Positions 11,722 to 46,017 of a stretch of 64,000 nucleotides of DNA are shown one piece after another. The DNA is from a virus, in the IMG/VR virus record IMGVR_UViG_3300037245_002163, positions 1-64,000 of that record. One strand, given 5' to 3'. Within the stretch, counting starts at the first letter, position 1. The number at the start of each line of letters is the position of its first letter. Made by a program: the position numbers and the translations under genes. The notes under the pieces were generated by a model, which saw nothing but the letters and a program-made list of their open reading frames with translations, was not told the DNA's origin and did no database searches.

Positions 11722-12324
11722 ATGGGGACAATGGTTTGGGAAACCTTAGAGCACTATCATCAACTCAGAACAAAGTACGGACGCAAGAGACCACGCAAGG
11801 TCGCTGCGGACAAAACGCGCGAAGACTCTGAGCACATCGCGCAGTTTCTTACGTGGTGCGGCGATCAACAGTTACCGCCGCGGCTGTTCATGGAAAAGCG
11901 TTTCGAAGCGATGTATCGAGCATCGCGTCGCAAAGCAGTTCCCCGTGCATCCCAGCTCGCAAGTGATCGTCTTGCCGAGTGCTGGCCACGAGTCGAGCAG
12001 AGCCACTACACCGATCAGCACGCTAAGCGGGTAACCCAAGGGCAAGACACGACGGTGCAGATCAACGTGCGCGCGTTGACCGCCGACCCGATGCCCTACC
12101 AGGAAGACGTGAAGCGTCAGAACGCCGGCATGCCCGAAGGGTGCCTCGCGATGCAGAAGTATTCAGGCGGCTACCATCCGAAGAGCGATTGGTGCAAGGG
12201 GTGCGCGTGCAAAGCCGCGTGTACCGACCAGCTCCGATCCGTGCATGGCTTTGACGTGGTGGCGCTCCGCACGGGACGCTACCAGCAAGTGCCAAATCAA
12301 ATCTTACGAGCGGCGTTTGGGTAG
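11722..12324 (+). CDS. Unknown cysteine-cluster protein in the replication operon
   Basis: 200 residues (ATG 11722; ATG 11731 also possible). N-terminal half is basic and helical. Near the C-terminus PEGC is followed by WCKGCACKAACTDQL: four or more closely spaced cysteines that could bind zinc or an Fe-S cluster. It sits between the UvsW-like and DnaB-like helicases, 4 nt from the latter, so it may be a helicase loader or primosome accessory factor. That role is inferred only from position. Confidence 0.55.
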   Translation: MGTMVWETLEHYHQLRTKYGRKRPRKVAADKTREDSEHIAQFLTWCGDQQLPPRLFMEKRFEAMYRASRRKAVPRASQLASDRLAECWPRVEQSHYTDQHAKRVTQGQDTTVQINVRALTADPMPYQEDVKRQNAGMPEGCLAMQKYSGGYHPKSDWCKGCACKAACTDQLRSVHGFDVVALRTGRYQQVPNQILRAAFG

Positions 12325-15956: not shown

Positions 15957-16910
15957 ATGGCGAACCAGAGAAAACGAAAGAAGGGGGCTCCGCTGTTCGA
16001 CCACGCGGGCGTGCGGCCTCGCAAGAATGTGAAGATCGGCGATACGGGCGTTGTCATGCCCGGCCTCGCTGAGCGGCACTTCCTGAGCCCCAGCCCCCAG
16101 CCCTACCGCTTTCCCCAGCGCGAGGTTACCGACTTGGCTGCGGGCCTCACGTTGGGCACGAACGTCATGCTCACTGGACCCACGGGGTGCGGCAAGACTT
16201 CGCTCGTCGCGCGGATCGCTTCCGAGCTGGGTCGGCCGTTCGTTCGGTTCAACTGCGATGGTGAGACGCGGGTTTCGAATCTGCGCGGCATGATGCGCCC
16301 GACCAGCGATGGCGGCGTGCTGAGCTTGAAGTTCAATCCCGGCGACTTGGCCGTTGCGATGCGCGAGGGCTATTGGGTTCTCTTCGACGAGATCGACGCG
16401 GCGCTCCCGAGCGTGCTCTTCGTTTTGCAGCCGGTGCTCGAAGAGGGTAACCGCTCGCTGCACATCCCTGAGACCGGCGAGACCGTTATCCCGCATGAAG
16501 ACTTCGCGGTGTTCGCTACGGGCAACACGATCGGCTACCGCGCCATGGCGCGAGCACGCCACGCCGGCACGCATTCGTTGAACGCGGCTTTCCTTGACCG
16601 CTTCGGGATCGTGATCGACTGCGGCTACCCGGAGCGCAAAGAAGAGATCAAGCGGATTCAGTGTCACGTGTCGGATCTCAAAATCGACTTCATTGACTCC
16701 GCTTGCCGCGTGGCGAACAAGCTCCGCCAAGACAAAAACTTCGTGAGCGATTTTTCGACGCGCCGGCTGATTCAGTGGTGCAAGGTCATGGAGCTAATGG
16801 GCGACGGGATTCGCGCTGCGGAGCTGACGATTCTGCGCAAGCTCGAAAGCCCGACCGATGCAGAGGTCGCCAAGCAAGCCATCAACCGCCAGTTTGGGTA
16901 CGACAAATGA
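15957..16910 (+). CDS. MoxR/CobS-type AAA+ ATPase
   Basis: 317 residues from the ATG behind AAGGGAACGAAGACC; an in-frame TTG 18 nt upstream belongs to the shared leader and is not used. Walker A TGPTGCGKTSLV (about 71-82), Walker B WVLFDEIDAA (about 139-148), sensor 1 FAVFATGNTIGY and arginine-finger region LDRFGIVIDCGY follow the MoxR/CobS/NirQ order. Such ATPases work with VWA partners to remodel or load substrates. The partner gene follows with an ATGA overlap, so the two are made together. Confidence 0.85.
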   Translation: MANQRKRKKGAPLFDHAGVRPRKNVKIGDTGVVMPGLAERHFLSPSPQPYRFPQREVTDLAAGLTLGTNVMLTGPTGCGKTSLVARIASELGRPFVRFNCDGETRVSNLRGMMRPTSDGGVLSLKFNPGDLAVAMREGYWVLFDEIDAALPSVLFVLQPVLEEGNRSLHIPETGETVIPHEDFAVFATGNTIGYRAMARARHAGTHSLNAAFLDRFGIVIDCGYPERKEEIKRIQCHVSDLKIDFIDSACRVANKLRQDKNFVSDFSTRRLIQWCKVMELMGDGIRAAELTILRKLESPTDAEVAKQAINRQFGYDK

Positions 16911-18958
16911 TCGACCTGCAACACGTCATGGAGCGCGTTGGCCGCATCGTAGCGGCCGACCAGCTACTCAAAGTCGACGTGCGCGGCGTCAAGGCGTTCG
17001 CCGTCAAAGGCCGCGTCGTGCTCCCGGCGATCGAAAACTACGATTGGTTGGGCGAGCATGCGGGCCGGATGCTTCATGGCTTGCTCGACCATGAGTGTGG
17101 CCACGCGAGCTTCACTGACTTTGAAGTGATCAAACGGATCGTCGCCGAAGAGACCCCCGCGTTCAAGGCGCTTTGGAACGCGCTAGAAGACGGGATGGTT
17201 GAACGCTTGAAGGGCGCGGAGTACCGGGGCTGCGCGCAGAACATCGAACAGCTTCACGACTGGTATTGGGAGCACGGCGGCGATGGCAACAGCCCGATCT
17301 CTGAGGTCATTGCATCGCACCCCGATCTTTGGACGGCGTTTTGCTTGGGCGCGCACACGGTGGTGGCGCCTTACGGTGGGCACCCCATTGCGACCATCGA
17401 AGAGCTGCACACGGACGCGGGCCGGATGCTGCGCGAAGTCGAAGCCGAGCTTGCCAAGGTGGCCACGGCGACTACGACCGAAGAGATATTCGCCATTACT
17501 AAGACGATCTACGAATGGTTCACGGACGTGGCTGAGCCGCCCAAGCCCGAGCCCGAGCCCGAAGAGTCAGACGAGGATGAAGACGGGGGTGGCGATACGC
17601 GCGATGATGAAGCGGACGATGACTGCGATGCGGAAGATCCTTCTGACGACGTTGACGATGACGACGCTGACGATGCTGACGATGACGGCGATGACAGTCG
17701 GGCTCGTCAGCGCGATGCTGAGCCCGAGGAAGACGACACGGAGGAAGACACGGCCGGCGAGGGGGGCGGTTCCGAGGACCAGCCCGATGACGGCACGGAC
17801 GCGACCGCCAAGGTCGAGCGCAGCAAGAGCCCGATCGTGGATCGTGACTTGGAACGGTGGACTAGGGACGGCACACCGCTGAATCCCGAAGACGCGATCC
17901 AGGTGCGCGTGCGGAGCGTCTTCGAACAACCGCGTTACGTCCAGCCCTATACGGTCTTTAGCCATGAGTTCGATCTTGTGCGTGACTTTTCGGCTGAGAA
18001 CGTGGTCACGGGCAATCAGTTCGCCGCCGATATGAAGGCAGCGCGCGCGGCAAGTGAGCCGCTTGCGATTGCTTTCGAGTCGGCGCTTCGGGCCAAGCGC
18101 GATCTGCGCGCGGTCGGCGGCTTCGACGAGGGGCTGGTCGACCCGGACCTTCTAGGCGAGTTCGCGGTGGGCGCGTGCCCGGTGGATCAGCTCTACCAGC
18201 AATACGTTGCGGAAGACTCTGACGACGTGGCGGTTTCCATCTTGCTCGATTGCTCCGGCTCCATGGGCAACGGGCCGAAGTCGAAGAGCCACTTGGCCAA
18301 GGTCACGGCGCTCGCGCTGCATCAAGCCTTGGCCTCATGCCAGATCGAACATGAGATCACGGGCTTCACCACCTACGAAAGCCACTACGCCAATCGATGG
18401 GTCTCTAGCGACGACGCTTTCCGAAAGCACGCCGCTGAGAACATGGACGCGGCCCGTGCAGCACTCAAAGAAGCGGAAGAGCAGGGGACCGATATCAGCA
18501 AGTTTGCGCGCATCTATCGGATGATCGGGGAAAACACGCTCATCCAAGTGCCCGTCTATGGCGTGTTCAAGAGCTTTGGCGCCACGGACGCGCGGGGGCT
18601 GGAGAACGTCGCCGGCCTCAGTCACAACCTGGACGGCGAAGCGGTGCTTTGGCAAGCGAAGCGGCTGGCGAAGCGAGCGGAGAAGCGGCGGGTCATGTTC
18701 GTACTGAGTGACGGGCAGCCCGAAGGGAGCATCGATAACGCCCAAGGCGCGCTCTACCTGACAGAAGCGGTCCAGCGGGTGCTCGCGTCGGGCATCGAAA
18801 TCTACGGTATCGGGATGGATAGCGCGGCCGTCCGCACGTTCTATCCTGAGCATTGGGTGTGCTCTGACATGCAAGACCTAGGAAGGCTTGCCATGACGGC
18901 GATGACCGATGTATTGCTTCGGTCCCGCATGGAGCGTCAATGGGTACGGGTAGCCTGA
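16907..18958 (+). CDS. CobT-like VWA protein with HECGH metallopeptidase-like motif
   Basis: 683 residues from ATG 16907. DHECGHASF (H62, E63, H66) is a zincin-like HExxH motif in the N-terminal domain. Residues about 205-320 are extremely acidic (long Asp/Glu tracts). The C-terminal domain from about 440 is a von Willebrand A fold with MIDAS DCSGSMGNG and a second strand MFVLSDGQPEGS. This order (peptidase-like, acidic linker, VWA) is that of CobT-type partners of MoxR/CobS ATPases. In phage the substrate is unknown. Confidence 0.8.
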   Translation: MIDLQHVMERVGRIVAADQLLKVDVRGVKAFAVKGRVVLPAIENYDWLGEHAGRMLHGLLDHECGHASFTDFEVIKRIVAEETPAFKALWNALEDGMVERLKGAEYRGCAQNIEQLHDWYWEHGGDGNSPISEVIASHPDLWTAFCLGAHTVVAPYGGHPIATIEELHTDAGRMLREVEAELAKVATATTTEEIFAITKTIYEWFTDVAEPPKPEPEPEESDEDEDGGGDTRDDEADDDCDAEDPSDDVDDDDADDADDDGDDSRARQRDAEPEEDDTEEDTAGEGGGSEDQPDDGTDATAKVERSKSPIVDRDLERWTRDGTPLNPEDAIQVRVRSVFEQPRYVQPYTVFSHEFDLVRDFSAENVVTGNQFAADMKAARAASEPLAIAFESALRAKRDLRAVGGFDEGLVDPDLLGEFAVGACPVDQLYQQYVAEDSDDVAVSILLDCSGSMGNGPKSKSHLAKVTALALHQALASCQIEHEITGFTTYESHYANRWVSSDDAFRKHAAENMDAARAALKEAEEQGTDISKFARIYRMIGENTLIQVPVYGVFKSFGATDARGLENVAGLSHNLDGEAVLWQAKRLAKRAEKRRVMFVLSDGQPEGSIDNAQGALYLTEAVQRVLASGIEIYGIGMDSAAVRTFYPEHWVCSDMQDLGRLAMTAMTDVLLRSRMERQWVRVA

Positions 18959-20343
18959 CATGGGAGGACTGTTGGCCAGTGGTCGAAGCAGAAGCACGGC
19001 GATGGCGCCGCGCGGGGGAAGAGATCGGGCTCGACCCGGACGACCTAACCCAAGAGGCTTCGATCGCGGCTGTACAGTGCGTGGAGCGATGGCGCCCCGA
19101 TGGGGGTGGTCGTACGGCGTACGTGCGCACGGCCATTCGCAATCGTTTCGCGAACGTACGCAAGCAAGCCCTACGTCAACGGCGCGTGCCACACGACGCC
19201 GCTGGACGACCCCGGCCGGAATGGGTGGGCAGCTATGATGCGCTTTCCGCGGATAATGAGTTGCGCTCTTCGGCCGTCTTCGATAAGGGTCGAATCGAGT
19301 CACGACAAGCATTACAAGTTTTGCACGATCGACTACCAAGGCGGGATTGGGAGTTTTTGGTTAGATCGTTCGTGCAGGGGGCACATTTGGCGAGGGGGCT
19401 CGCGCCGGCACAACGGCAGCAACTACAAAGCCGGCTTCGGGAAATCCAGGGGCGGGCACGACGCATTCTCAGCGGGATTCTCACAACTCACGAGGAACAA
19501 CCGATGAATGCTGCCATTCCGCAACCGAACATAGAAGAGCTTCCCGAGTGCCACGCGAAAGGCCAACAGCCGCAAGGCTATGACCGGGAAGATCCGGTGT
19601 GCTGGAATTGCCGGGACAAGTTCACGTGCTTGCCGGCCGCGCTCGACAAGCATTTGATAGTGGGGACGCTCCGCGATGATACGGAGATCCACGCCGTTCA
19701 TGCCGAAGAGATGAGCTTCCGAACGGCGATCGAGCGGATGAAGGCCCGGCTTCGGGTGACTGAGGCCGGCGGCGAAGTGCCGACTGACTTAGACGTGAGA
19801 ACCCCCATCGCCGAAACCGGGGTACGCCCCGCCCCCGCCCCCGCGCCTGAGCCCGTTCCTGAGCCTGAGCCCGTTGTGGAAGAGCCCCCAGAAGCCCCTG
19901 AGCCGCCCCCTGAGCCCGCCGCCAAAGAGCCCGCGCCAACGCCGCCGCCCCCTAAGAAGCGGCCCCCAGCGCCCGTGCCAGGGCTTGTGAACGCCGAAGG
20001 GCTCCCCACGCTAAAGAACGGCAAGCCGCTCCCGCCCATCCGCCAGCTCAGCGTCAAGCAAATGAAGGCCGCGCTCGCTCGTATCAAGGTCGGGCAAGGC
20101 TTCGCGCTGGACGTGGGGATGCAGCTCGTCCGCAAGACCAAAGACGGCGACAATATCATCGTACAGCTCGTCCCGACCGGCTTCCGATTGGATGGGGTGG
20201 TCTACAGCTCGCTTTCGACGGCGATCATGTATCGACTGCGCAAGGTGACGAGCGGCAATGCCTATTTCAGCATCGCTACCCACCAATGCACTGAAATCTG
20301 GTCGAAGAAGGGCGAAGTGCTTGCCGGCTATTCCACGTCATGA
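18940..20343 (+). CDS. Sigma-70 region 2-like protein joined to a Cys-rich, proline-linked C-terminal domain
   Basis: 467 residues. Residues 5-85 resemble sigma region 2: EEIGLDPDDLTQEASIAAVQ, then GRTAYVRTAIRNRFANVRKQ; a weak region-4-like LPRRDWEFLVRSF follows. After residue 188 comes DPVCWNCRDKFTCLP, a proline/glutamate-rich linker (about 285-350) and a C-terminal domain VPTGFRLDGVVYSSLSTAIM resembling DUF2924-type modules. A strong internal start (GAGGAA before ATG 19504) suggests a second 279-residue product. It could steer host RNA polymerase; not proven. Confidence 0.6.
   Translation: MGTGSLTWEDCWPVVEAEARRWRRAGEEIGLDPDDLTQEASIAAVQCVERWRPDGGGRTAYVRTAIRNRFANVRKQALRQRRVPHDAAGRPRPEWVGSYDALSADNELRSSAVFDKGRIESRQALQVLHDRLPRRDWEFLVRSFVQGAHLARGLAPAQRQQLQSRLREIQGRARRILSGILTTHEEQPMNAAIPQPNIEELPECHAKGQQPQGYDREDPVCWNCRDKFTCLPAALDKHLIVGTLRDDTEIHAVHAEEMSFRTAIERMKARLRVTEAGGEVPTDLDVRTPIAETGVRPAPAPAPEPVPEPEPVVEEPPEAPEPPPEPAAKEPAPTPPPPKKRPPAPVPGLVNAEGLPTLKNGKPLPPIRQLSVKQMKAALARIKVGQGFALDVGMQLVRKTKDGDNIIVQLVPTGFRLDGVVYSSLSTAIMYRLRKVTSGNAYFSIATHQCTEIWSKKGEVLAGYSTS
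19492..19506 (+). promoter_or_regulatory. Internal ribosome binding site and in-frame start
   Basis: GAGGAA (19492-19497), 6-nt gap, ATG 19504, in the same frame as the sigma-like gene (codon 189). It would give a 279-residue C-terminal protein with the CxxC domain and DUF2924-like end. Confidence 0.5.
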
Positions 20344-40006: not shown

Positions 40007-40912
40007 ATGCGCGCACTGGTTTTAGGGGGAGGGGGCAGTAAGGGTCCGTATCATTTAGGTGCGATCACTTCGCTGCTTTCGCAGGGATACCGATTTGACT
40101 TGTTCGCGGGGGTGAGCGTGGGGGCGCTCATGGCCGCATACCTAGCGCAGTTCGATGACCGCGATGTGCTCATAGGCCATCGCGCGTTGGTCGATATCAT
40201 GATGCGGCTCAACACGACTGACGTGTGGCGCAATTGGAAGTTCTGGCGTCGCGTCGCCGGCCTTTGGAAGACGAGCATCTACAACTCATCGGGGCTCCAT
40301 GCGCTCATCGAAAAGAGCGTGGACCCAAAGAAGATCCGTGAGAGCGGTAAGAAGCTGCGCATCGGCGCCGTGGATCTCTACAGTCGCGGGTACGAAGTGT
40401 TCGATGAGACCTATGTTCCGCTCAACAAAGCCATCGCCGCCAGTGCTTCACTGCCGTTCGCATTCTCGCCCGTGAGCATGGGCGGGAGCTTGTGGGTCGA
40501 CGGGGGTGTACGCGCCATGACGCCTTTGGCATCGGCTATCGAAGCGGGAGCAACCGACATAGTGGCGATCACGCTACAGCCCAAAGAGGCGAGCTTGAAG
40601 TTCAAAGACAAACCGAACGCGCTCGACATTGGGCTGCATTCGATTGATCTCATGAGCGACGAGATCGTGACGAAGGATATCAAGATCGCGCAGCTCTACA
40701 CGAAGATCAGGGGCCTAGAGCTACAGCTCGCCGGGGCGTGCGGCCATGCGCTCGACCACACCACGAACAAGCGGGCCGTGAAGGTGCTGCACATCCGGCC
40801 GCAGTTCGCCTTGAACGAGGATAGCGCCAAGTTCATGCCCGCCGAAGCCGTTCGCCTGTACCAACAGGGCCAGGAAGACGCTCAGCATGCGGTGTTTTTG
40901 GCCACGCCTTGA
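40007..40912 (+). CDS. Patatin-like phospholipase
   Basis: 301 residues with strong ribosome binding site AAAGGGGGG. GGGGSKG (about 7-13) forms the oxyanion hole, GVSVGA (Ser37) is the nucleophile elbow, and WVDGGVRAMTPL (Asp about 165) completes the Ser-Asp dyad. Patatin-fold enzymes hydrolyse acyl chains of membrane phospholipids. Phage copies are uncommon; possible roles are membrane attack at entry or lysis, or modulation of host membranes. No signal peptide, so it would start in the cytoplasm. A leaderless-type promoter overlaps its end. Confidence 0.9.
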   Translation: MRALVLGGGGSKGPYHLGAITSLLSQGYRFDLFAGVSVGALMAAYLAQFDDRDVLIGHRALVDIMMRLNTTDVWRNWKFWRRVAGLWKTSIYNSSGLHALIEKSVDPKKIRESGKKLRIGAVDLYSRGYEVFDETYVPLNKAIAASASLPFAFSPVSMGGSLWVDGGVRAMTPLASAIEAGATDIVAITLQPKEASLKFKDKPNALDIGLHSIDLMSDEIVTKDIKIAQLYTKIRGLELQLAGACGHALDHTTNKRAVKVLHIRPQFALNEDSAKFMPAEAVRLYQQGQEDAQHAVFLATP

Positions 40913-43789: not shown

Positions 43790-44203
43790 ATGGGCCGAAA
43801 GAAGATATCTACGACCGTTTATGTGGAACCTGAGCAAGACATTGCGCTCAAAAAGCTCCGTGATCGCACGGGTATTCCGATGGCCGTGCTCATCCGTGAC
43901 GCCATCGATACGATGCTCCGCCGCTGGGAGAACGAGCATGACGTGCTCGACCACGTGGATCAGCTTGTGGCTGAGAAGCGCAAAGAGGCCGACGATGCGC
44001 ACCGCCACGCCGATATCATGGTCGAAGAGCTGGACGTGCTGGCGGAGCACTGCCGGCAAGTCGAGTCAGAGCGCGATCAGTGCCGCAATCTGGTCCAGCA
44101 CTACCGTGGCGCGCTCAGAGGGGTCCAGGGCCGCCTGAGCGACCTTCTGACGGCTTCGCCGAGCTTCTACCTAGACCAAGACGATGAAAAAGAAGAGCCC
44201 TAA
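43790..44203 (+). CDS. Ribbon-helix-helix DNA-binding protein with coiled coil
   Basis: 137 residues. Residues 4-50 (KKISTTVYVEPEQDIALKKL, then RTGIPMAVLIRDAIDTMLRR) fit a CopG/MetJ-type ribbon-helix-helix: a short beta-strand TTVYVE, two helices, basic turn. The C-terminal 80 residues form a long coiled coil. Such proteins are usually dimeric repressors; it may regulate this accessory region. Starts immediately after the upstream stop. Confidence 0.7.
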   Translation: MGRKKISTTVYVEPEQDIALKKLRDRTGIPMAVLIRDAIDTMLRRWENEHDVLDHVDQLVAEKRKEADDAHRHADIMVEELDVLAEHCRQVESERDQCRNLVQHYRGALRGVQGRLSDLLTASPSFYLDQDDEKEEP

Positions 44204-44205
44204 GC

Positions 44206-44391
44206 GTGGCTGATAGGCCCCCGCGCGAAGATATCCTGTTGGAGCGTATCGAGCGGGCCAAAGAGGCCCTTGTGCGGCTACGCTCCAACTGCGCCCAACA
44301 AGTGGCTTTCGTCGAATCGCTCGAAGAGACCTACACGAAGTGGTTCGGCGACAAAGAGGATACCAAGCCTCAGAAGCTCCCCGAACGCTAG
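44206..44391 (+). CDS. Small coiled-coil protein
   Basis: 61 residues from GTG, 2 nt after the previous stop. Heptad-like ILLERIERAKEALVRLRSNC. Possibly an accessory subunit of the ribbon-helix-helix protein. The end touches the convergent zinc-ribbon gene. Confidence 0.5.
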   Translation: MADRPPREDILLERIERAKEALVRLRSNCAQQVAFVESLEETYTKWFGDKEDTKPQKLPER

Positions 44392-44552
44392 GCGTAGCGC
44401 CCCTTGAACCACGTGTGGCATCCGCAGTGCTCACAGACGGCGGGATTGGTGACGACGTGCACGGGCTTCTGGCACGAGGCGCAGCGAGGGATGGGACGGT
44501 AGCGAGGCCGGCGAACCTTGCGCACGAGCCAAAACAGCAACCGACCCCCCAT
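44388..44552 (-). CDS. 54-residue zinc-ribbon protein
   Basis: ATG 44552, basic N-terminus (MGGRLLFWLVRKVRRPRYRP), then CASCQKP...CEHCGCHTWF: two CxxC pairs about 16 residues apart, a classic zinc ribbon. No ribosome binding site is visible. It lies downstream of the candidate ncRNA on the same strand, so some transcription could read through. Confidence 0.6.
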   Translation of the reverse strand: MGGRLLFWLVRKVRRPRYRPIPRCASCQKPVHVVTNPAVCEHCGCHTWFKGRYA

Positions 44553-44577: not shown

Positions 44578-44684
44578 AAAAAATCCTTGGCGTCGCCCGT
44601 GCGGTGAATCTGATCCCGTGTGAGGGGGTCACGCTGAACCCGACCCTGTTTTTGCGCTGCGGGCGATCACCAAGGAAGGGGAAT
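44578..44684 (-). ncRNA. Candidate structured small RNA with own promoter and U-run
   Basis: About 107 nt. The 5' part CCTTGG (44670-44675 region on the minus strand) pairs with 3' CCAAGG (44585-44590 region); inside this, CGCCCG (44660-44665) pairs with CGGGCG (44594-44599), and an inner hairpin pairs GGGTC with GACCC (44626-44646). The closing stem is followed directly by A and six U (44578-44583). A TTGACA-N17-TAGGTT promoter ends 7 nt before the 5' end. No open frame covers it. Known families were not recognised; it could be a regulatory RNA acting on host or phage messages. Confidence 0.5.
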
Positions 44685-44690
44685 GACCGT

Positions 44691-44719
44691 AACCTAAGCG
44701 CCGCCCAAGGTAGTGTCAA
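44691..44719 (-). promoter_or_regulatory. Promoter of the candidate ncRNA
   Basis: Minus-strand TTGACA (44714-44719), 17-bp spacer, TAGGTT (44691-44696). Perfect -35, moderate -10. Confidence 0.55.
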
Positions 44720-44725
44720 TATCCC

Positions 44726-44800
44726 TTAGCAGCTCGACACAAGCGTGGCGATGATGAAGCCGGCGGCCATGGTCAAGCCGAATGCGGTTTCGAGGTCCAC
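44726..44800 (-). CDS. 24-residue hydrophobic peptide
   Basis: From GTG 44800: FGLTMAAGFIIATLVSSC is a short membrane-like segment ending in Cys. No ribosome binding site is seen. Kept because it follows the similar 40-residue membrane peptide on the same strand; weak support. Confidence 0.3.
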   Translation of the reverse strand: MDLETAFGLTMAAGFIIATLVSSC

Positions 44801-45438: not shown

Positions 45439-46017
45439 TTAGAACAGGTGGGCTTTTGCAGTGCGCACGCGAAACTTCGGCGCTCCGTTGCGGCGTAACA
45501 CGACTTCGGTCACGCCGGCAGCGATGGCGTCTTTATCACGGGCGACCGCCACATCCGTGGCCCATTCCCAGCGCGTGAGCGAGGGTGAGGGGTCACGGTA
45601 GTCGCACCAAAAGTGCAGCCCTTCGACCGCGAAGATGCACACGACGTGCCCCTTGCTCTTCTGGCCCTCGCGCCCGTACCAAACGGTGCCGAGCCATGCG
45701 GCGCTTGCGAGCCCGCTTTGCAAGAGCGCCGTACACCAATAGAGCGCGTGATCATCGCAGTCCCCAAACTCCGTGTCGCCGGCATTGATCTTTGCCTGAA
45801 ACTTGCCGGGGCACATGAGCACATCGAGCACGCCCTTGATCGGATCGGGGCGCCAGTGCTGTCCCCATTTCAAGGCTTCGACGATCTCCCGCGTGGTGTA
45901 GTAGTGGTCGAGGTCGGGCCATCGTCGCCAGCCAGTGAGCCATTGGGTGAGCCCGTACCAAAGCGGCACGAGCCAGTAGAGGCGCTTGTAGAAAAAGCGC
46001 ACGAGCTTGTCAGTCAT
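45439..46017 (-). CDS. Transglutaminase/papain-like cysteine protease-fold protein
   Basis: 192 residues, ribosome binding site AGGGGGA. FGDCDDHALYW (Cys87), SKGHVVCIF (His124) and FWCDYRDP (Asp139 or Asp142) are in the Cys-His-Asp order of transglutaminase-like proteins. Residues 8-24 are hydrophobic and aromatic (FFYKRLYWLVPLWYGL), perhaps a membrane anchor. It could cleave host proteins or peptidoglycan-linked peptides. Family membership is by motif; substrate unknown. Confidence 0.6.
   Translation of the reverse strand: MTDKLVRFFYKRLYWLVPLWYGLTQWLTGWRRWPDLDHYYTTREIVEALKWGQHWRPDPIKGVLDVLMCPGKFQAKINAGDTEFGDCDDHALYWCTALLQSGLASAAWLGTVWYGREGQKSKGHVVCIFAVEGLHFWCDYRDPSPSLTRWEWATDVAVARDKDAIAAGVTEVVLRRNGAPKFRVRTAKAHLF

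Follow-up and report, generated by a model that had tools for sequence, protein, structure and literature searches.

Few small RNAs of phages are known, and most of these come from phages of model bacteria. RNA anti-CRISPRs are small phage non-coding RNAs, and small RNAs of the RsaE type, with their C-rich loops, occur in Firmicutes. Phage-encoded small RNAs that act in trans include PreS of lambda and VpdS of VP882 (PMC12197685). P22 sar, lambda OOP and PAK_P4as15 are cis-encoded antisense regulators of translation start, and they act with near-perfect complementarity (PMC12197685). The pseudo-ToxI RNA of phage PhiTE is a further small phage non-coding RNA (PMC3475682).

Here we describe, from sequence alone, an RNA gene of an uncultured phage that belongs to no described family. 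In this phage and in two relatives whose records span the site, the locus very probably (a probability of about 0.9) holds a non-coding RNA gene of about 105 nt, which has its own promoter and is under strong selection. Like PreS and VpdS, it would be a small RNA from a phage genome that base-pairs with mRNA; however, no relation in sequence or family to either was found, and the gene proposed as target is a tail gene of the phage itself rather than one of the host. The block of a ribosome-binding site, which is proposed here, would be shared with P22 sar, lambda OOP and PAK_P4as15, whereas 47 kb separate the RNA from its candidate target and the complementarity is partial. The likeness to RsaE-type RNAs, i.e., unpaired C-rich segments suited to G-rich ribosome-binding sites, is one of description, and the replicon is a different one and the host probably so. 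A decoy mode, as for pseudo-ToxI and the RNA anti-CRISPRs, would also be possible for such a small phage RNA, but this one has no repeat unit and its core is found in no host genome searched.

The RNA gene and its promoter

The phage record is 101.3 kb long, and the window, i.e., the whole stretch of DNA that was analysed, is its first 64 kb. Genes for a terminase, a DNA polymerase, a DnaB-like helicase and a protein with sigma70 region 2 were found, and a tail sheath gene further along the record identifies a contractile-tailed phage. The minus strand carries TTGACA-N17-TAGGTT (44719-44691) and, after it, the RNA body (44684-44578), which ends in six U (Table 1). The initial annotation had read this layout as an independent structured non-coding RNA with its own promoter. 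Its -35 box (44719-44714), 17-nt spacing and -10 box (44696-44691) are present, as are the pairing arms CCTTGG/CCAAGG, CGCCCG/CGGGCG and GGGTC/GACCC on the same strand, and the reading is supported by the same promoter and RNA in the two relatives. The U-run end that it had also described exists in this phage (six T at 44583-44578), but it is conserved in neither relative, where the 3′ end may be made by processing or by Rho.

Stock scans for promoters and terminators do not list the element, because TAGGTT fits TATAAT at three of six positions and the terminator-like loop is about 60 nt long; the pattern in a single genome is therefore just suggestive. That promoter and RNA stand beyond chance is confirmed, at the level of sequence, by comparison, i.e., by the two syntenic relatives and by the same promoter class at genes and tRNAs. 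A scan of the three genomes showed that strong TTGACA-N16-18-TAnnnT sites are few and that most of them precede genes or tRNAs. The RNA promoter, conserved as TTGACA-N17-TAGnnT, belongs to this class of the phage's own. In gene promoters, a palindrome, TACGGTnnACCGTA, sits between the -35 and -10 boxes; it is absent from the RNA promoter and from the promoter of a tRNA leader; thus, the RNA is probably not under the repressor or activator of the mRNAs.

Table 1. Coordinates of the RNA locus, of adjacent reading frames and of the palindrome-bearing promoters
Feature	Position	Strand	Remark
-35 box TTGACA	44714..44719	minus	invariant in all three phages
Conserved block TTGACACTA at -35 box			5′ border of the module in all three phages
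Promoter spacer, 17 nt	44697..44713	minus	length invariant in three, letters drifted, without TACGGTnnACCGTA palindrome
-10 box TAGGTT	44691..44696	minus	TAGTGT in both relatives
Small RNA body	44578..44684	minus	predicted start A44684, the 7th base past the -10 box; end at U-run; z of fold − 3.3 to − 3.9
C-rich 5′ tail AUUCCCCU(U), unpaired	44677..44684	minus	one extra C in both relatives
Closing stem, 5′ arm UCCUUGGUG-(bulged A)-UCGCCCG	44660..44676	minus	16 pairs with 44584-44599
Closing stem, 3′ arm CGGGCGACGCCAAGGA	44584..44599	minus	conservation ends here in all three phages
Inner stem GGGUC	44642..44646	minus	pairs with GACCC 44630-44626; one G short in L003
Apical C-rich segment GUGACCCCCUCAC	44620..44632	minus	invariant; alternative hairpins in folds S1/S2
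U-run, six U	44578..44583	minus	this phage only
24-codon membrane-type ORF (MDLETAFGLTMAAGFIIATLVSSC)	44726..44800	minus	in both relatives (tblastn E ~6e-7); directly upstream of RNA promoter, outside RNA
54-aa CxxC...CxxC protein	44388..44552	minus	this phage only; outside RNA
TACGGTnnACCGTA/TTAGGTGAAGGGA promoters	G000 51913-, 85136-; G001 15447+, 46277+, 50525+, 55767+
TACGGTnnACCGTA/TTAGGTGAAGGGA promoters	G002 2251-, 79305-, 75373-, 68354-

Relatives, selection and borders

Relatives were sought with a 192-aa gene (45439-46017) as bait, which lies upstream of the RNA promoter at a distance of about 0.75 kb. The bait led to L002 and L003, two records in which the genes follow the same order. 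Both carry the RNA at the syntenic site and on the same strand (11813-11915 and 11730-11830, respectively), so it is present in 3 of 3 records spanning the site. Model R1 found a single copy in each of these three phage records and none in 22 others. This absence is uninformative, because the two closest contigs among the 22 (96% in terminase; 83% in polymerase) stop short of the site and the others are too distant. Terminase, DNA polymerase, 192-aa and ribbon-helix-helix baits, together with RNA-core patterns run against viral and genome collections, returned L002 and L003 as the only further carriers. Matches of the RNA-core patterns elsewhere were coding sequence or chance; one genome match (L076), a TPP-riboswitch fragment by eye, was drawn by the query string itself and has no Rfam support at this site.

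The family, which the initial annotation did not recognise, is not recognised by Rfam either: nothing reached gathering score at the RNA site or in the relatives, and the matches seen there were at chance level, with E up to 10. Phage and plasmid records gave no RNA match except short chance words. Identities as a tRNA-like, Y-RNA-like, 6S-like or CRISPR-repeat-mimic RNA were rejected, because Rfam gave them no support and no host sequence matched. Judged on its sequence, the RNA is a new family of phage small RNAs, real and conserved, whose mechanism is tentative.

Any two of the three phages share 91-92% identity over the RNA body (103 aligned columns), whereas at four-fold degenerate sites, taken from the terminase and neighbouring genes, identity is about 61% (317/515 against the record of L002 and 293/487 against that of L003). 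Under neutral drift with p = 0.61, such identity has P ~4e-12, a figure that treats sites as independent and serves as a guide only. Selection on the RNA thus keeps its conservation well above that of the silent sites of neighbouring genes. Within the promoter, neither the -35 box nor the length of the 17-nt spacer varies, whereas the spacer letters have changed at the neutral rate (9/17 identical to L002). Loops are conserved as much as stems, and about 30 bases across the apical region form an invariant block. The covariation check returned zero compensatory changes, as three sequences so nearly identical cannot show any; a comparison of promoters and module borders can reveal small RNA genes where covariation cannot.

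A mechanical frame of 182 codons does run through the element, yet three single-base indels between the relatives in the RNA break every frame, in keeping with the earlier claim that no gene frame fits; the RNA is thus incompatible with any reading frame. These indels argue against a protein-coding relic, which, together with a DNA site for replication origin, packaging or recombination, we regard as improbable. The extended inverted repeat and the high sequence conservation would suit such a site, but there is no GC-skew turn near 44 kb, the element is single copy, and its -35 box, -10 box and spacing are conserved as in a promoter.

Conservation spans from TTGACACTA at the -35 box to CCAAGG of the closing stem in all three phages, and in L003 about 45 unrelated bases separate TTGACACTA from the upstream 24-codon ORF. 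Beyond the RNA, this phage has the 54-aa gene on the same strand, whereas in the relatives the next gene is convergent and is a different one in each (62 aa in L002, 116 aa in L003), so that no conserved association with a same-strand downstream gene was found. These borders and the differing downstream genes mark the element as a unit with its own promoter and not as part of a neighbour, be it leader or 3′ end. That it serves the 54-aa gene (44552-44388) as a 5′ leader, whether attenuator or riboswitch, is highly improbable, although in this phage that gene lies on the same strand with its start codon 26 nt downstream: the relatives keep the RNA without that gene, of which L002 and L003 have no ortholog and which has no Pfam match, and their next gene is convergent and differs between them. 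This synteny comes near to refutation, and no Rfam riboswitch was matched.

A cis element between convergent operons, i.e., a terminator or 3′ stabilising structure of the minus-strand operon with no function as a free RNA, is quite unlikely. A plus-strand operon ends at 44391 on one side, minus-strand genes lie on the other, and this phage has a long stem with a U-run, all of which would fit. However, the U-run is absent in the relatives, a terminator does not need an invariant loop of 60 nt, and a conserved promoter stands directly ahead of the RNA.

Fold, mode of action and candidate target

In this phage, the minus strand folds with an energy of − 44.8 kcal/mol (z = − 3.3; 0/200 shuffles as low), whereas the plus-strand fold is weaker (z = − 1.5); z ranges from − 2.6 to − 4.3 across the three phages. 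The predicted fold has a closing stem of 16 bp, with nearly all pairs invariant and one bulged base (A in two phages, G in one), and hairpins in the inner region. For the latter, fold S1 (GGGUC/GACCC and CCC/GGG hairpins) and fold S2 (a rod with a GUGA-[CCCCC]-UCAC hairpin) differ by no more than about 2 kcal/mol, S1 being favoured in two phages and S2 in one, a choice beyond an alignment of three sequences. The 5′ tail has a computed mean unpaired probability of 0.78-0.90, and in the folds predicted for two of the phages most of the apical C run is paired.

The RNA is most likely a phage regulatory small RNA. Transcription would start near 44684 from its own sigma70-type promoter and yield an RNA of about 105 nt whose ends pair in the 16-bp stem, leaving the C-rich 5′ tail and the conserved, metastable C-rich apical region exposed. 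Such free C-rich segments, AUUCCCC(C)UU in the tail and GUGACCCCCUCAC at the apex, suggest antisense pairing in trans with G-rich ribosome-binding sites, which would lower the translation of phage mRNAs. We hold this antisense mode tentatively, at slightly under even odds.

The conserved RNA might instead bind a protein or mimic a host RNA, as a decoy, sponge or anti-defence RNA, a possibility to be taken seriously though a doubtful one. Unpaired segments conserved as much as stems are expected of such an RNA; it also lies among small accessory genes, and its promoter, like the tRNA promoter, has no mRNA-promoter palindrome. However, a search of 84,980 bacterial and archaeal genomes for an exact 20-base core of the RNA gave no match, and so there is no searched host sequence for it to mimic; the lack of an Rfam match and of a repeat unit also speaks against this reading.

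For the antisense mode, the RNA core was compared with the start regions of 57 genes common to the three genomes, the starts being assigned by a simple script. The scan was limited to the core because a duplex scan of the whole RNA, including the closing stem, gave many G+C-rich matches. The best predicted target would be the start of a tail-assembly-chaperone-like gene at G000:91282, which has the best mean score over the three genomes among the 57 shared gene starts; 7/1200 dinucleotide shuffles of the core do as well. For the apical segment, which was picked after the full-RNA scan, 0/200 shuffles are as good at this gene. Genome-wide and on both strands, only the RNA's own locus ranks above this site in two genomes, and in the third the site comes eighth of eight listed. 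The gene encodes 183 aa, adjoins that of a tail tube-like protein, has more tail-region genes after it, and matches tail assembly chaperones weakly (E = 0.005). We treat this gene as a tentative target of low probability, a lead and not a result.

The 5′ tail pairs perfectly with GAAGGGGGA of the target in both relatives. In this phage, the target differs (GAAGGGGGACATG to AGAGGGGGTCATG, an order that implies no direction) and the RNA has no compensating change; pairing of the apex is stronger here, and pairing of the tail is stronger in the relatives. The 5′ tail alone, used as a seed, does no better than shuffles (275/1500 and 139/1500). It is a speculative proposal that the ribosome-binding site of the chaperone gene is recognised by the 5′ tail as well as by the apical loop, by which the phage would set the dose of a virion assembly factor. 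If the predicted target is true, tail assembly would be under the control of an RNA dedicated to it; even without that target, a defined gene of about 105 nt stands.

Further features of the neighbourhood

The 24-codon ORF (44726-44800) is too short for the usual gene callers. On the complement of the RNA, all three phages have a Shine-Dalgarno-like GGAAGGGG(G)AATG with an ORF of four codons after it; this overlaps the conserved -10 region, and a by-product is its simplest explanation. In the 192-aa protein (45439-46017, minus strand), EFGDCDDHA is invariant and H and D residues are conserved, and relatives of the protein occur at 12 viral loci; it has no Pfam match, and by eye its sequence suggests a transglutaminase-like pattern.

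The mRNA promoters with the TACGGTnnACCGTA palindrome also share a leader, TTAGGTGAAGGGA...GACCATG, and they are a candidate regulon with its operator inside the promoter. A ribbon-helix-helix (Arc/CopG-like) protein (window 43790-44203, plus strand), conserved beside the RNA, is a candidate reader of the palindrome.

The region at window 51326-51203 (minus strand) carries, ahead of a tRNA-Ala/tRNA-Ile pair, a conserved promoter, TTGACA-N17-TAGTTT. Between this promoter and the tRNAs lies a conserved noncoding leader of about 110 nt with an intrinsic terminator, CCCCAA...TTGGGG plus a T-run, which is kept in both relatives; the leader is a candidate second small RNA or attenuator. Elsewhere in the window, a CobT-like protein with a VWA domain (16703-18955, plus strand) adjoins the sigma70 region 2 protein (18940-20343), and the phage encodes a patatin-like phospholipase (40007-40912, plus strand; Pfam E 5e-32).
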